NCBI GenBank assembly: GCA_021325215.1
Contig: JAJPHO010000191.1
Coordinates: 1-35,097, forward strand
Length of the DNA: 35,097 nucleotides
Direction of reading: 5' to 3'
From: Alphaproteobacteria bacterium
Lineage (GTDB): Bacteria; Pseudomonadota; Alphaproteobacteria; Rhodospirillales; Magnetospirillaceae
Position 1 is the stretch's first letter; each line of letters starts with the position of its first letter. Made by a program: the position numbers and the translations under genes. The notes under the pieces are model-generated. The model had not been told where the DNA came from and made no database searches. It saw only the letters and a program-made list of their open reading frames with translations. Below are positions 5,058 through 8,062 of this stretch, in pieces.

Positions 5058-5062
5058 GCGAC
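5058..5062. repeat. Left copy of 5-bp target duplication (GCGAC)
   Basis: GCGAC here matches GCGAC at 7957-7961. A 5-bp duplication is the known product of Tn7, Mu and Tn5053-family insertion. Alone, five matching bases are weak; the equal 18-base distance from each copy to the first end motif makes it credible. Confidence 0.5.
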
Positions 5063-5190
5063 CGCAGGCTAGCGCTTTAAGTGAGCAATTCCGGTGCTCC
5101 GCATGAAAGCGTCACACCGATAGATGAGCAATCGAGACAGCTATAGATGGGCATAAGTCGCATATTTACAGCTTTAAATGAGCGCGTATT
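5063..5190. repeat. Left-end array of transposase-binding-like motifs
   Basis: Four copies read on the plus strand toward the element interior: CTTTAAGTGAGCAATT (5075-5090), GATAGATGAGCAAT (5119-5132), ACAGCTATAGATGGGCAT (5137-5154) and ACAGCTTTAAATGAGC (5168-5183). Core-to-core spacings are 43, 23 and 31 bases. The same motif occurs inverted at the right end. No gene is seen between 4989 and 5333; the rest of that stretch is AT-rich leader to the gene at 5334. Confidence 0.65.
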
Positions 5191-5333
5191 TGTTGAAATT
5201 CTATATTTATCAATAAGATGACATTAACATCTTACAAGATTTTTCGCCCGTTAAATAAGGCGCACCCCAGCTCAGACGGGAAGATCTCGGCCGTCAAGCC
5301 TATAAGTACAATGCAAGGAAAAGGCGGGATGAA

Positions 5334-5663
5334 ATGACCCCCAGTGAATATGCGATCCTCAATACGTTATTTATCGGATTAGCCCTACTCCTATTCTTCA
5401 TAGTCATGATACCTTACAGAGCGCTTCAACCAAAAGGATACGGGCTGCTGTTCTACGCCCTGTTGCTTACACTCTGCGCCTGCTTGACCTATGGACTCTA
5501 TAATGACGAATTGCAGGTGCTCGCAGATTCGATTGCCTCTTCGTCGGTTACTGCGAAACTCGCAAGCAATTTACGCATCTTGGTATTCGTTGTGCCCGGG
5601 CTGATGTTGGGGGTGGCTGCGAACTTGATCACCGCCTACTTGCAAGCGCCGAAAATCAAGTGA
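5334..5663 (+). CDS. Small membrane protein, unknown function (cargo)
   Basis: A 109-residue protein with three predicted membrane segments: about residues 8-29 (ILNTLFIGLALLLFFIVMI), 37-54 (GLLFYALLLTLCACLTYG) and 82-101 (LRILVFVVPGLMLGVAANLI). A loop of about 27 residues follows the second segment. The start is supported by a purine-rich AAGGAAAAGGCGGG stretch just upstream. I do not recognise a family. It lies inside the transposon-like island, directly inboard of the left end, so it is probably cargo. The last codons and stop (TCAAGTGAG) are repeated 19 bases further on as TCAAGTGAG, a small tandem duplication over the 3' end. Superinfection-immunity or toxin-type membrane proteins are possible, but nothing specific supports either. 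Confidence 0.6.
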   Translation: MTPSEYAILNTLFIGLALLLFFIVMIPYRALQPKGYGLLFYALLLTLCACLTYGLYNDELQVLADSIASSSVTAKLASNLRILVFVVPGLMLGVAANLITAYLQAPKIK

Positions 5664-6284
5664 GCCCCCCCCCTTCAAGTGAGGCCCCTAGCCATCGGTC
5701 ACGTTCCGTTCTTCGGCAAGCCGGATAACTCTCGCAATCATGCATGGTCTTTGAGAAACGCGCTCAAATCGAGTATGCTAAGGCTATGCAAATCGCGCCG
5801 CTCATATCCAGGGCTACCGAAGTTGCGGCTCTAATAGCCGCGATGGCGCTTAGTTTGCGTGAGCTTACGCGCCTTCTATCCGCTTGGAACTCTTGCATGA
5901 ATGTCGTGCATATTAAAAAAACCTAATTTTTGCACACATTTGCACAACCACAGACACTTTCCCTCCGCTGAAAAACTCTTTTTGGGCGCAATGATTTTGC
6001 ACCTGGAGCCTCCCTGCTTCCCACGAAGCCAACAGCGCAATACTCCCGATTTAGGTGTATTTTAGTTTTAGCCACCCCGCAGGCATCTATCTGCGTCCCG
6101 ATTGAAATACCCTCTATATCCCTTACCTTCCTGCCTTTAGGCACTTAAGCAGGGAATGCAGGCTCTCGATTTTGCAAACAACCCATGGTAGTTTTCGCCA
6201 TGGGAGAAGGTGAGTGAATTCTAAAGAAAAAATAGGCCGAGTGCCGGCGGCACTGATGGTTGCTCCAGCTACTCGGGCGAATCA
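5664..6284. other. 620-bp cargo stretch without a convincing gene
   Basis: Low-GC DNA inside the island. Short open frames exist (60 residues at 5744-5926 plus; 73 residues at 5923-6144 minus, GTG start), but neither has a recognisable domain or a clear ribosome site. Visible structure includes a near repeat TTTGCACACA/TTTGCACAAC at 5936-5956, a hairpin CCCATGG/CCATGGG at 6182-6204, and AGTGCC/GGCACT near 6239-6254 just before the next gene fragment. It probably holds eroded remains of lost cargo. Confidence 0.5.
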
Positions 6285-6521
6285 GTGCCACTAATCAACA
6301 AACTGGGGCTCGCCCTCATCGCTGACGTGATGGATTGGAGCACGGACGAAGCCACGCGTGAATATGCCTGGCTGCGACTGATGGCATCCGTGAAATATGA
6401 TGGCTACTCCGATTTCCGTGCCGGAGTGCGGTTTCTCGAAAATCTAGCCACCTGGCTTCGGCAGTTCCAAAAGGAAGATCGCACCACCGCATACACCTTC
6501 GTAAAGGAGCGGATGAGCTAT
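6285..6521 (+). pseudogene. Truncated phosphoribosyltransferase-like conflict protein, N-terminal fragment
   Basis: About 78 residues from a GTG start (VPLINKLGLALIADVMDWST...) continuing through YAWLRLMASVKYDGY, RFLENLATWLRQF and AYTFVKERM. From memory this resembles the helical N-terminal part of large bacterial proteins annotated as phosphoribosyltransferase-like (PRTase-CE), which are associated with defence or conflict loci. The resemblance stops at about 6515. Beyond this the frame only shadows the antisense 3' end of the NADAR gene and runs on to 6728 without meaning. The catalytic domain is therefore missing: a deletion or recombination joined this fragment tail-to-tail with the NADAR gene, whose stop codon overlaps it. 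No good ribosome site is seen before the GTG, so the 5' end may also be damaged. Confidence 0.45.
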
Positions 6522-7015
6522 TCGGCAGCAGCAAGAGAGGTAGCTTTAGCGCCGCCCAATTCAGATCGCAGCTTGGTGCGAAGCTCCATTAGGAGTACGC
6601 CCAACATGTTGCGCCCTACACCGTTGACTTCACCCCACAACCGGTTGACCTCGTTGTCGACGGTTGCGGTCTCGACCAGGCGGGCCTCGCCGGTCGAAAG
6701 CAGTAATTCCTTCAGATCGCTATGCTGAGTAAATTTTGCGTAGAGTACGGCGCGCATGCGATCGAATTTGCTCGTCGACCATCCGGGCGCCACGTCCCAA
6801 TAATAAAGACCGTGCGCTGCCATGGCCAGCAATGCTGGTGAGGGTGCTTCCATGAGCCACTTCTTCACGGCGGGCTTGCGGGCTTTACCGGCCTGATACG
6901 CGTGTTCGCTGGTCGCGAACGCCTCATCCTCGAACACGATCTCGCGGCGGTAGAGATTGCTGAAGGCGCCATAAGGCTTTTCGCTGGCCCGGTAGAAGCG
7001 GATCTCGTCGCCCAT
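6518..7015 (-). CDS. NADAR-domain protein (YbiA-like)
   Basis: A 165-residue protein with the full NADAR signature. It shows IRFYRASEKPYGAFSNLY (residues 5-22), T35-S-E-H-A-Y-Q-A-G-K44, KFDRMRAVLYAKFTQH, LLLSTGEARLVE, WGE and GRNMLGVLLMELR. NADAR proteins act on N-glycosidic ADP-ribose or riboside bonds. YbiA-type members are linked to riboflavin-pathway intermediates, and others remove ADP-ribose from guanine bases and serve as antitoxins to DarT1-like DNA ADP-ribosyltransferases. I chose ATG 7015 because AAGGAG sits six bases upstream; the longer frame to 7078 would run through the operator-like palindrome. No DarT-like toxin is visible nearby, so this is either a lone protective enzyme or the survivor of a broken pair. 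It is divergent from the HTH gene at 7050. Confidence 0.85.
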   Translation of the reverse strand: MGDEIRFYRASEKPYGAFSNLYRREIVFEDEAFATSEHAYQAGKARKPAVKKWLMEAPSPALLAMAAHGLYYWDVAPGWSTSKFDRMRAVLYAKFTQHSDLKELLLSTGEARLVETATVDNEVNRLWGEVNGVGRNMLGVLLMELRTKLRSELGGAKATSLAAAE

Positions 7016-7025
7016 CGTCTGCTCC

Positions 7026-7039
7026 TTGCAAATTTGCAA
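7026..7039. promoter_or_regulatory. Perfect 14-bp palindrome, candidate operator
   Basis: TTGCAAATTTGCAA is perfectly self-complementary and lies in the 34-bp gap between the NADAR start and the divergent HTH gene. A second, imperfect palindrome (ATGCTAATTCGCAT, 7050-7063) overlaps the HTH start. The position suits autoregulation by the HTH protein with co-control of NADAR. Confidence 0.55.
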
Positions 7040-7049
7040 TATATAAATA

Positions 7050-7457
7050 ATGCTAATTCGCATGAAGCCGACAAGCAAGCAGTTAGACGATCTGAAGGCC
7101 TCGATTGCGGCCGCGAAGGGAGAAAAAGGGCTCTCGAATGCGGAAATCGCGCGAATTTCAGACGTTCACCCCAGCCAGGTAGGGCGAATCTGCGAAGGCG
7201 GCTTCAGAACGTTCAGCTTCAATGTTGTGCGAATCTGCAAAGCGCTCGACGTCACCGTGCCGCACCTCGAGGCGAACCGCGGCAAGATGGACCCCGCGCT
7301 AGCGCAAGCTTACTCGAATGTGCGCAGACTCTGGGAGGAGACACCGGAAAGTGCGGCGGCGATCACACGAATCCTCAATTTGATCCTCGATCTGCAAAAT
7401 CCGCGCAAGCGCAAGGACCGCACTCCCACTCCCCAAACAGGGGAACAGAAGGTCTAA
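7050..7457 (+). CDS. HTH (XRE-like) DNA-binding protein
   Basis: A 135-residue protein. Residues about 20-70 form a helix-turn-helix: LSNAEIARISDVHPSQVGRI is the HTH core, and FNVVRICKALDVTVPHL is the stabilising helix of lambda-repressor-like domains. The C-terminal half has a helical stretch (AQAYSNVRRLWEETPESAAAITRILNLILDL) and a charged tail; no peptidase or ligand domain is seen. It starts divergently from the NADAR gene across a 14-bp palindrome and probably represses both. ATG 7050 or ATG 7062 could be used; neither has a ribosome site, so leaderless translation is possible. It belongs to the cargo of the island. Confidence 0.75.
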   Translation: MLIRMKPTSKQLDDLKASIAAAKGEKGLSNAEIARISDVHPSQVGRICEGGFRTFSFNVVRICKALDVTVPHLEANRGKMDPALAQAYSNVRRLWEETPESAAAITRILNLILDLQNPRKRKDRTPTPQTGEQKV

Positions 7458-7499
7458 GGACATACCCCCCCTAAATCTAAGCGATCGACCATAACCCAC

Positions 7500-7640
7500 C
7501 TATAAAGGATCGGGCGGCAATAGATCCGTAGGGGAAACTCCAAGCGCTTGAGCCAACTCGTAGACCGTAACTACGGTCGGATTGCGGCGGCCATTTTCCA
7601 AGCTGCTCACATAGTGCTGCGCAAACCCTGGCCATCGCCA
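7500..7640 (-). pseudogene. C-terminal remnant of an XRE-family regulator
   Basis: In one minus-strand frame, about 46 codons end in TAG at 7502-7500 and read FAQHYVSSLENGRRNPT, then VYELAQALGVSPTDLL. This is the second half of a canonical XRE helix-turn-helix (recognition helix, SLENG, LAxALGVSP). The first half is missing: upstream of about 7640 the DNA instead encodes the TniQ start in another frame. It differs from the intact HTH gene next door. Confidence 0.7.
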
Positions 7641-7713
7641 CACGGGCGAACCATGAAGAGAAAGTCTCGTCTCGCAGAGGCCGCGGGCGGCCTAGCCAAA
7701 GCTGATCGGGCAT
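7636..7713 (-). pseudogene. tniQ: tniQ N-terminal remnant
   Basis: ATG at 7713 opens a frame reading MPDQLWLGRPRPLRDETFSS, then WFARVAMA. This matches the start of TniQ/TnsD-family target-selection proteins, which begin with a Pro-rich stretch followed by a (G/D)E-x-x-SSW-x-x-R-x-A motif. After about 26 residues the match ends and the DNA continues as an XRE remnant in a different frame, so the gene is cut by a recombination junction near 7640. It points inward from the right end of the element. TniQ normally recruits the transposition machinery to its target site. Its presence is the main protein-level evidence that the island is a Tn7-like/Tn5053-like transposon. Confidence 0.6.
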
Positions 7714-7886
7714 ACTAGCCCCGCCGGCAAGTTGAACGCAGCGGGCTTCTACCCGGAAAAGTACAACTTATAGTTAATATTTTTCCGATCCAGAGAAGAG
7801 CTGGGCTCTCTCGCTCAACAAAACGCTGAAGCTCGTTTGCTGTTGGAAGCGATGCCAATCCATTGATATTCAAATGGATGGACAAA

Positions 7887-7956
7887 CACCTGTTCATCTA
7901 TGGACGGAAATTGCTCATTTATAGCTGTGATTGCTCATCTATAGATGTTTCCGACA
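7887..7956. repeat. Right-end array of transposase-binding-like motifs
   Basis: Read on the minus strand from the tip: TCTATAGATGAGCAAT (7946-7931), ACAGCTATAAATGAGCAAT (7929-7911 region) and CCATAGATGAACAGG (7903-7889). Core spacings are 20 and 21 bases, about two helical turns, so proteins would line one face of the DNA. A weaker fourth candidate (CTATAAGTTGTAC) lies at 7775-7763. The tip ends in ...CCGACA. Dense packing here against sparse packing on the left mirrors Tn7's right/left asymmetry. Confidence 0.65.
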
Positions 7957-7961
7957 GCGAC
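7957..7961. repeat. Right copy of 5-bp target duplication (GCGAC)
   Basis: Matches 5058-5062. It directly follows the ACA tip and lies 26 bases from the encoded 3' CCA end of the tRNA-Gln gene. Confidence 0.5.
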
Positions 7962-7987
7962 GGAATGGATCAGCTTGTCTGGAAGGC

Positions 7988-8062
7988 TGGCTGGGGCGCC
8001 AGGGATCGAACCTGGGAATGGCGGTACCAAAAACCGCTGCCTTACCGCTTGGCTACGCCCCA
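7988..8062 (-). tRNA. tRNA-Gln (anticodon TTG)
   Basis: A 75-base cloverleaf on the minus strand. The acceptor stem is TGGGGCG/CGCCCCA, the D-arm region is TAGCCAAGCGGTAAGGCA, and the anticodon stem GCGGT/ACCGC surrounds loop TTTTGGT (anticodon TTG). The T-arm contains GGTTCGATCC. Discriminator G and an encoded CCA (revcomp of 7988-7990) complete it. It reads CAA and CAG codons for glutamine. The transposon-like island begins 26 bases past its 3' end. Confidence 0.97.

Follow-up and report, generated by a model that had tools for sequence, protein, structure and literature searches.

The element beside the tRNA-Gln gene

We have analyzed a window of 35,097 nucleotides (the whole stretch of DNA presented above), in which ARAGORN detected one tRNA, a tRNA-Gln(TTG). 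Beside it lies a relic that spans positions 5063-7956, i.e., 2,894 bp, and is bounded on either side by GCGAC, as expected for a 5-bp target duplication (Table 1). The GC content of the element is 52.4% vs. 65.8% in the remainder of the window. The 26 bp described in the initial annotation between the encoded CCA and the GCGAC of the tRNA side were confirmed.

Table 1. Features of the relic and of the adjacent tRNA gene (window coordinates).
Feature	Position	Strand	Remarks
Left copy of target duplication GCGAC	5058..5062	.	
Left (sparse) end	5063..5190	.	four repeated sites, starts 5075, 5118, 5141, 5172; terminus CGCAGG
Cargo ORF, 109 aa	5334..5663	+	hydrophobic by eye; without Pfam match
Cargo NADAR-domain protein	6518..7078	-	PF08719, E 3.3e-25
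Cargo helix-turn-helix (HTH_3) protein	7050..7457	+	
Frame resembling C-terminal part of XRE regulator	7500..7628	-	named by eye; out of frame with tniQ remnant
tniQ remnant, first 28 codons only	7630..7713	-	runs into XRE-like frame
Right (dense) end	7890..7956	.	TGTCGG read inwards; three repeated sites, 12, 32, 53 bases in from 7956
Right copy of target duplication GCGAC	7957..7961	.	
Spacer, 26 bp, duplication to encoded CCA	7962..7987	.	
tRNA-Gln(TTG), proposed attachment gene	7988..8062	-	ARAGORN; CCA encoded at 7990-7988

Both ends carry repeated sites of the type CTATAGATGAGC, at offsets of 12, 55, 78 and 109 in the left end and, more tightly, at those given in Table 1 in the right one, which read inward from 7956 is TGTCGGAAAC. 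The denser spacing identifies the right end as the dense end, and it is this end that faces the 3' end of the tRNA, as had been proposed (the comparison of dense and sparse ends concerns the window copy only). The first site is found at offset 12 from either terminus, providing independent support for both proposed boundaries. The right end, with TGTCGG and its sites, agrees with a Tn7-like element; in the left one the sites are at the expected offset, but the terminus departs from the expected TGT at two of its three bases.

The NADAR protein also matched a NADAR anti-phage family, far under its cut-off. Its ORF and the helix-turn-helix ORF are divergent and overlapping, and the pair may represent cargo with a defence or toxin-antitoxin-like function. 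The initial annotation took tniQ as the sole recognisable transposition gene left. A remnant is indeed present, but it amounts to 28 codons and its match to the Pfam TniQ model is weak (17.2 bits, cut-off 27). Over 21 aa it shares 71% identity with the intact TniQ of a relative (G006; genomes are given by our own numbers). In tblastx its identity was 61-78% (21-28 aa) with one set of TniQs and 47-52% (31-40 aa) with six others, which belong to the tRNA-Gln(CTG) group of the family. No transposase was found in the element. A whole-genome search of this organism gave no match to TniQ elsewhere, and neither did a single-protein search for TnsB, carried out without a positive control within it. 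Having these 28 codons in place of a TnsA/TnsB/TnsC/TniQ set, the element is classed as a relic and not as a working Tn7-like member. We infer that this copy can no longer move by itself, its transposition genes being lost and its left terminus altered.

An 8-bp inverted repeat had also been pointed out around the target, as a possible tRNA terminator or target feature. It does exist, although with a loop of 20 bases and not ~23. Perfect 8-bp inverted repeats with loops of 3-30 were present in 1,564 of the 35,030 stretches of 67 nt in the window, and with 4.5% of them as good the repeat is not significant. Its arm GACAAGCT appeared in 0 of 11 spacers of the accepted elements described below. 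Both roles were discarded, and the repeat is probably due to chance.

Similar ends at tRNA-Gln genes of relatives

We searched 55 genomes from the taxonomic family of the window for the neighbourhood of tRNA-Gln(TTG), with matches in 52 (30 loci were read), and for that of tRNA-Gln(CTG), with matches in 54 (30 loci were used in the motif-position count). Ends of the same kind were found beside tRNA-Gln, or beside its 3' part, in at least 15 of the 55 family genomes. Including genomes outside the family there were 18 tRNA-Gln sites, with the end located 27-35 nt past the CCA (duplication included), a spread of 9 bp. The distance was 27 nt in G023, G028 and G036; 28 in G009, G038 and G049; 29 in G031, G040, G042, G045 and G046; 30 in G016 and G027; 31 in the window genome and 33 in G006. 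Outside the family it was 28 nt in Azospirillum brasilense MTCC4039 (counted from a 3' tRNA fragment), 34 in G180 (at tRNA-Gln(CTG), counted by hand, terminus TGTCAT) and 35 in A. brasilense 2020WEIHUA_K. In G036, G038, G040, G049 and MTCC4039 the flanking copy was the 3' part of tRNA-Gln only. A common spacer is shared by G040, G042 and G045, so the 18 sites are not all independent events.

At each of the 18 sites the TGTC terminus and the repeats were on the tRNA side. The short and nearly fixed distance past the gene is the one expected of tRNA homing. Regarding the tRNA-directed insertion suggested in the initial annotation, the orientation of other copies to tRNA-Gln was constant, while the distance falls in a narrow band and is not a single value. 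Copies placed at random with respect to tRNA genes, which would have spoken against such insertion, were sought but did not turn up.

We then used a pattern open to any tRNA, consisting of a T-arm and an encoded CCA followed after 25-36 nt by TGTCRG, over the 55 genomes. It matched 14 times, 12 of them at tRNA-Gln, against 0 for the reversed control. Repeat arrays of the transposase type (judged by eye) were present in 11 of the 12 tRNA-Gln matches and in neither of the two others. As a background, tRNA-Gln accounted for 11 of the 139 T-arm plus CCA ends in four complete genomes (~8%), giving a binomial P of 4.7e-12 for the excess under the assumption that matches are independent. The pattern missed the window, G016 and G028, because their T-arm reads GGTTCGATCCC. 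Matches without repeats were not counted as elements: G010 (tRNA-Gln, TGTCGG at 28 nt), G036:C43 (another tRNA) and G048. Over 57 tRNA-Gln ends and 300 nt downstream, TGTC[AG]G occurred 11 times at 20-39 nt past the CCA compared with 8 times in the remaining 280 nt; the motifs used as controls, reversed or complementary, occurred 2 and 13 times.

At the level of the class, the strict combination of tRNA-Gln and TGTCRG matched in only 5 of 385 genomes. None of the five loci contained TniQ or showed a clear array of repeats, and these matches were judged chance. Two of the five genomes (G347, locus L106, and G158, locus L109) have TGTCRG ~30 nt past tRNA-Gln without repeats and encode a TniQ of the group described below on another contig, so that their matches could be old footprints. 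Viral contigs gave 26 pattern matches with no relative among them, and scanning genome contigs with a single protein, the TniQ of G006, returned only G006 TniQ itself.

Intact relatives

Complete TniQ-TnsA-TnsB-TnsC sets were found beside tRNA-Gln in G006, G045 and A. brasilense 2020WEIHUA_K (by Pfam in G006 and A. brasilense, by tblastn in G045 and others; several other copies are partial). TnsB of the relatives is a Mu-type transposase and TnsC belongs to the TniB/TnsC type. With all four genes, the set at tRNA-Gln is Tn7-like. Together with the 12 of 14 matches at tRNA-Gln, the presence of these genes in intact relatives supports tRNA-directed insertion. A 5-bp duplication could be matched at both ends, with a GACA terminus, in three relatives: G009 (6,871 bp, duplication GGGCT), G042 (3,953 bp, CTCAC) and A. 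brasilense 2020WEIHUA_K (13,548 bp, ACTTC); with the window copy this makes four elements. What the sequences themselves show is the location of the elements, their spacing and orientation, the duplication and the gene set.

In G006 the tniQ-tnsABC operon has the opposite orientation to the others and more than 9 kb separate tniQ from the tRNA-side end. No far end of this element was found, and the contig starts nearby. By its tRNA-proximal end (locus L042, 12427-13675) there is a CapH/CapP-like pair (PADLOC capH E 2.4e-23, capP E 9.7e-65). Pairs of this type regulate CBASS-type defence. A left-end candidate of G016 at 19.3 kb ended in ACA only and was dropped as chance.

G038 carries two tandem Tn7-like elements behind a tRNA-Gln 3' fragment (locus L084, 6053-17194), apparently inserted 1 bp apart. 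They are joined by CCGACACTTCTGTCGG, and CTTCT precedes the nearer end on the tRNA side. From these junctions the first insertion would have taken place 27 nt past the CCA and the second at 28 nt, between the tRNA and the first. Between this tandem and the intact tRNA, ~16 kb away, there is a stretch resembling an integrase island.

Tn7-like elements that find tRNA genes through an RNA guide have to be considered here. According to PMC11406308, tRNA genes are frequent targets of V-K CASTs, reached by means of truncated guides, and the elements could be CAST-like, with a spacer against tRNA-Gln and TniQ as a mere adaptor. However, none of the 10 ORFs (≥150 aa) scanned in the one complete element of A. 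brasilense had a Cas domain, which a CRISPR-associated transposon should carry. Besides, the TniQs found here, with ~450 aa and an additional module at the C-terminus, differ from the small adaptor TniQ that PMC10293859 describes for CASTs, and the CAST insertions treated in PMC8649781 are mostly predicted 50-60 bp from the target. We consider guidance by RNA highly improbable.

Partial tRNA copies and genomic islands

In G033, G036, G038, G040, G043 and G049 we have found 45-nt 3' parts of tRNA-Gln(CTG) that start just before the anticodon and are kilobases from the full gene or on a different contig. They are likely the footprints of integrase islands with crossover in the anticodon loop. 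Seven Azospirillum strains have tRNA-Gln(TTG) on a large secondary replicon, and in two of them the Tn7-like element is near it. The other five have different DNA past the tRNA, with no TniQ/Tns match in the stretch read; the sequence differs in all five and a clean empty site was found in none.

That tRNA-Gln is a hot spot, with partial copies in several genomes, would fit an integrase-type genomic island using this gene as att site, the adjacency being a hot spot effect. The five Azospirillum replicons with other DNA can be taken in the same sense, as can the sequence that follows the intact tRNA of G038, which by eye resembles an integrase gene. However, the duplication of the window element lies outside an intact tRNA, its left end, when read, showed no copy of the tRNA 3' part, and no integrase domain was detected in the five ORFs of the element that we scanned. 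Islands of that kind would account neither for the asymmetric repeat arrays at the ends nor for the TnsA/B/C/TniQ encoded by the relatives. In G036, G038 and MTCC4039 the Tn7-like end is found beyond the tRNA fragment, as expected if an island entered later. An integrase island as the origin of the window element is thus extremely improbable.

The TniQ group and its C-terminal module

We identified a group of 15 TniQ genes, 14 of full length plus the broken one of G009. Ten are at tRNA-Gln or its 3' part and one in tandem behind such a site (G038). Two are at tRNA-Ser(GGA), at 28 nt in G347 and 65 nt in G263, and that of G027 and the tRNA are on different contigs. For the remaining one (G158) there was no tRNA within the 19.9 kb read. 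The tree of these proteins has long open branches and is compatible with a single origin of tRNA-Ser use as well as with several.

All 14 full-length proteins have a C-terminal module of the general form RYWKLDG.SPEV..AAR..A...GE.V..W....LR, with one RHWKLQG variant and differences at other positions too. From this sequence pattern we take it to be ribbon-helix-helix-like. Its matches to families of small DNA-binding proteins were sub-threshold (PF07704, E 0.01 and 0.068; PF17538, 0.14), and those to NF041551 (7e-5 and 6e-4) were under its cut-off. Structure prediction of G006 TniQ without alignment was unusable (pLDDT 40), and in the comparison with solved TnsD/TniQ chains the best stretches span profile positions 10-194 only, with the C-terminus outside. 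The module is absent from all three TniQs of 335 aa. Since it is found in the tRNA-associated proteins and is missing in the shorter ones located elsewhere, the module is the likely reader.

Two of the three 335-aa proteins (G046, locus L092, and G049, locus L093) are found with TnsABC just upstream of a metallo-beta-lactamase-fold gene. This suggests that the latter is a second att site, used by the 335-aa branch. The wider family has therefore other sites, as it should if Tn7-like elements inserted widely and only the copies beside tRNA genes, a harmless spot, survived. Still, survival would not be expected to prefer tRNA-Gln over other tRNAs (12 of 14), nor to fix the orientation or a spacing of 27-35 nt, and two successive insertions that would be 1 bp apart in G038 argue for active targeting. 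We hold this explanation to be very unlikely.

A model for tRNA-Gln homing

Our reading is instead that 5063-7956 holds the decayed, non-autonomous remains of a Tn7-like element whose relatives (tniQ-tnsA-tnsB-tnsC) home to tRNA-Gln via TniQ, and we consider it very probable. The window copy lacks the reader domain of TniQ, so its targeting is argued from the relatives. In these, TniQ would bind the 3' part of the tRNA gene, probably through its ribbon-helix-helix-like C-terminal module, and would recruit the TniB/TnsC ATPase. Recruitment of the ATPase by the target-selector protein is established for Tn7. TnsA and TnsB would then insert the element ~27-35 bp past the CCA, 5-bp duplication included, with the TGTC terminus towards the tRNA, which would be spared and remain intact. 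We infer TniQ as the tRNA reader, the bases read and the role of the module.

The wider proposal is more tentative, and we put it forward as a possibility that falls somewhat short of even chances. A compact TniQ of ~450 aa with a ribbon-helix-helix-like C-terminus would read the 3' half of the tRNA alone and measure ~30 bp, and the reader would have switched among tRNA-Gln(TTG), tRNA-Gln(CTG) and tRNA-Ser(GGA), probably via shared T-arm and acceptor bases. The result would be a protein-guided, CRISPR-free family of transposons that home to tRNA genes in Alphaproteobacteria.

Relation to known systems

Tn7 inserts with its right end towards the gene, ~25 bp past glmS, generates a 5-bp duplication and has multiple binding sites at its ends, dense at the right. 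The elements described here resemble Tn7 (TnsABC+D, attTn7 at glmS) in the type of gene set, the right end facing the target, the short distance past a conserved gene, the 5-bp duplication, the multiple sites at the ends and, in the window copy, the denser right end, but differ in the target gene and in the C-terminal part of TniQ, and the machinery is missing from the window copy. With Tn5053/Tn402 (TniA, TniB, TniQ) they share TniQ and a TniB-type ATPase, although the relatives add TnsA and are found at a tRNA gene, vs. the plasmid resolution sites that PMC11406308 mentions for those transposons.

The closest parallel is found in CAST I-B2 (PmcCAST) and I-D (CyCAST), for which TnsD homing to tRNA genes is reported in PMC10293859 and PMC11406308, around 30-33 nt downstream of tRNA-Leu for CyCAST (PMC10293859). 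Tn7-like elements downstream of tRNAs also appear in a survey (PMC8649781). I-B2 and I-D resemble the elements found here in having a selector of the TnsD/TniQ family and a tRNA gene as att site. They differ in their fused TnsA-TnsB, as PMC11406308 presents it, and in their CRISPR effectors, whereas G006 and A. brasilense encode TnsA and TnsB in an ORF each, and the targets here are tRNA-Gln and tRNA-Ser, in Alphaproteobacteria. As tRNA homing by TnsD/TniQ was already known for I-B2 and I-D, the kind is known, and the members and targets appear to be new. A literature search for Tn7-like elements at glutamine tRNA found nothing relevant, but it does not suffice to call the tRNA-Gln target novel.

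With the elements described here, tRNA-Gln and tRNA-Ser(GGA) join the tRNA genes apparently recognised by a protein of Tn7-like elements, and a complete TniQ-TnsABC set is available in a named strain, A. brasilense 2020WEIHUA_K. Given that the probable reader is a single small module at the C-terminus, and that natural relatives without the module sit elsewhere, the way in which TniQ proteins gain new targets becomes directly testable.
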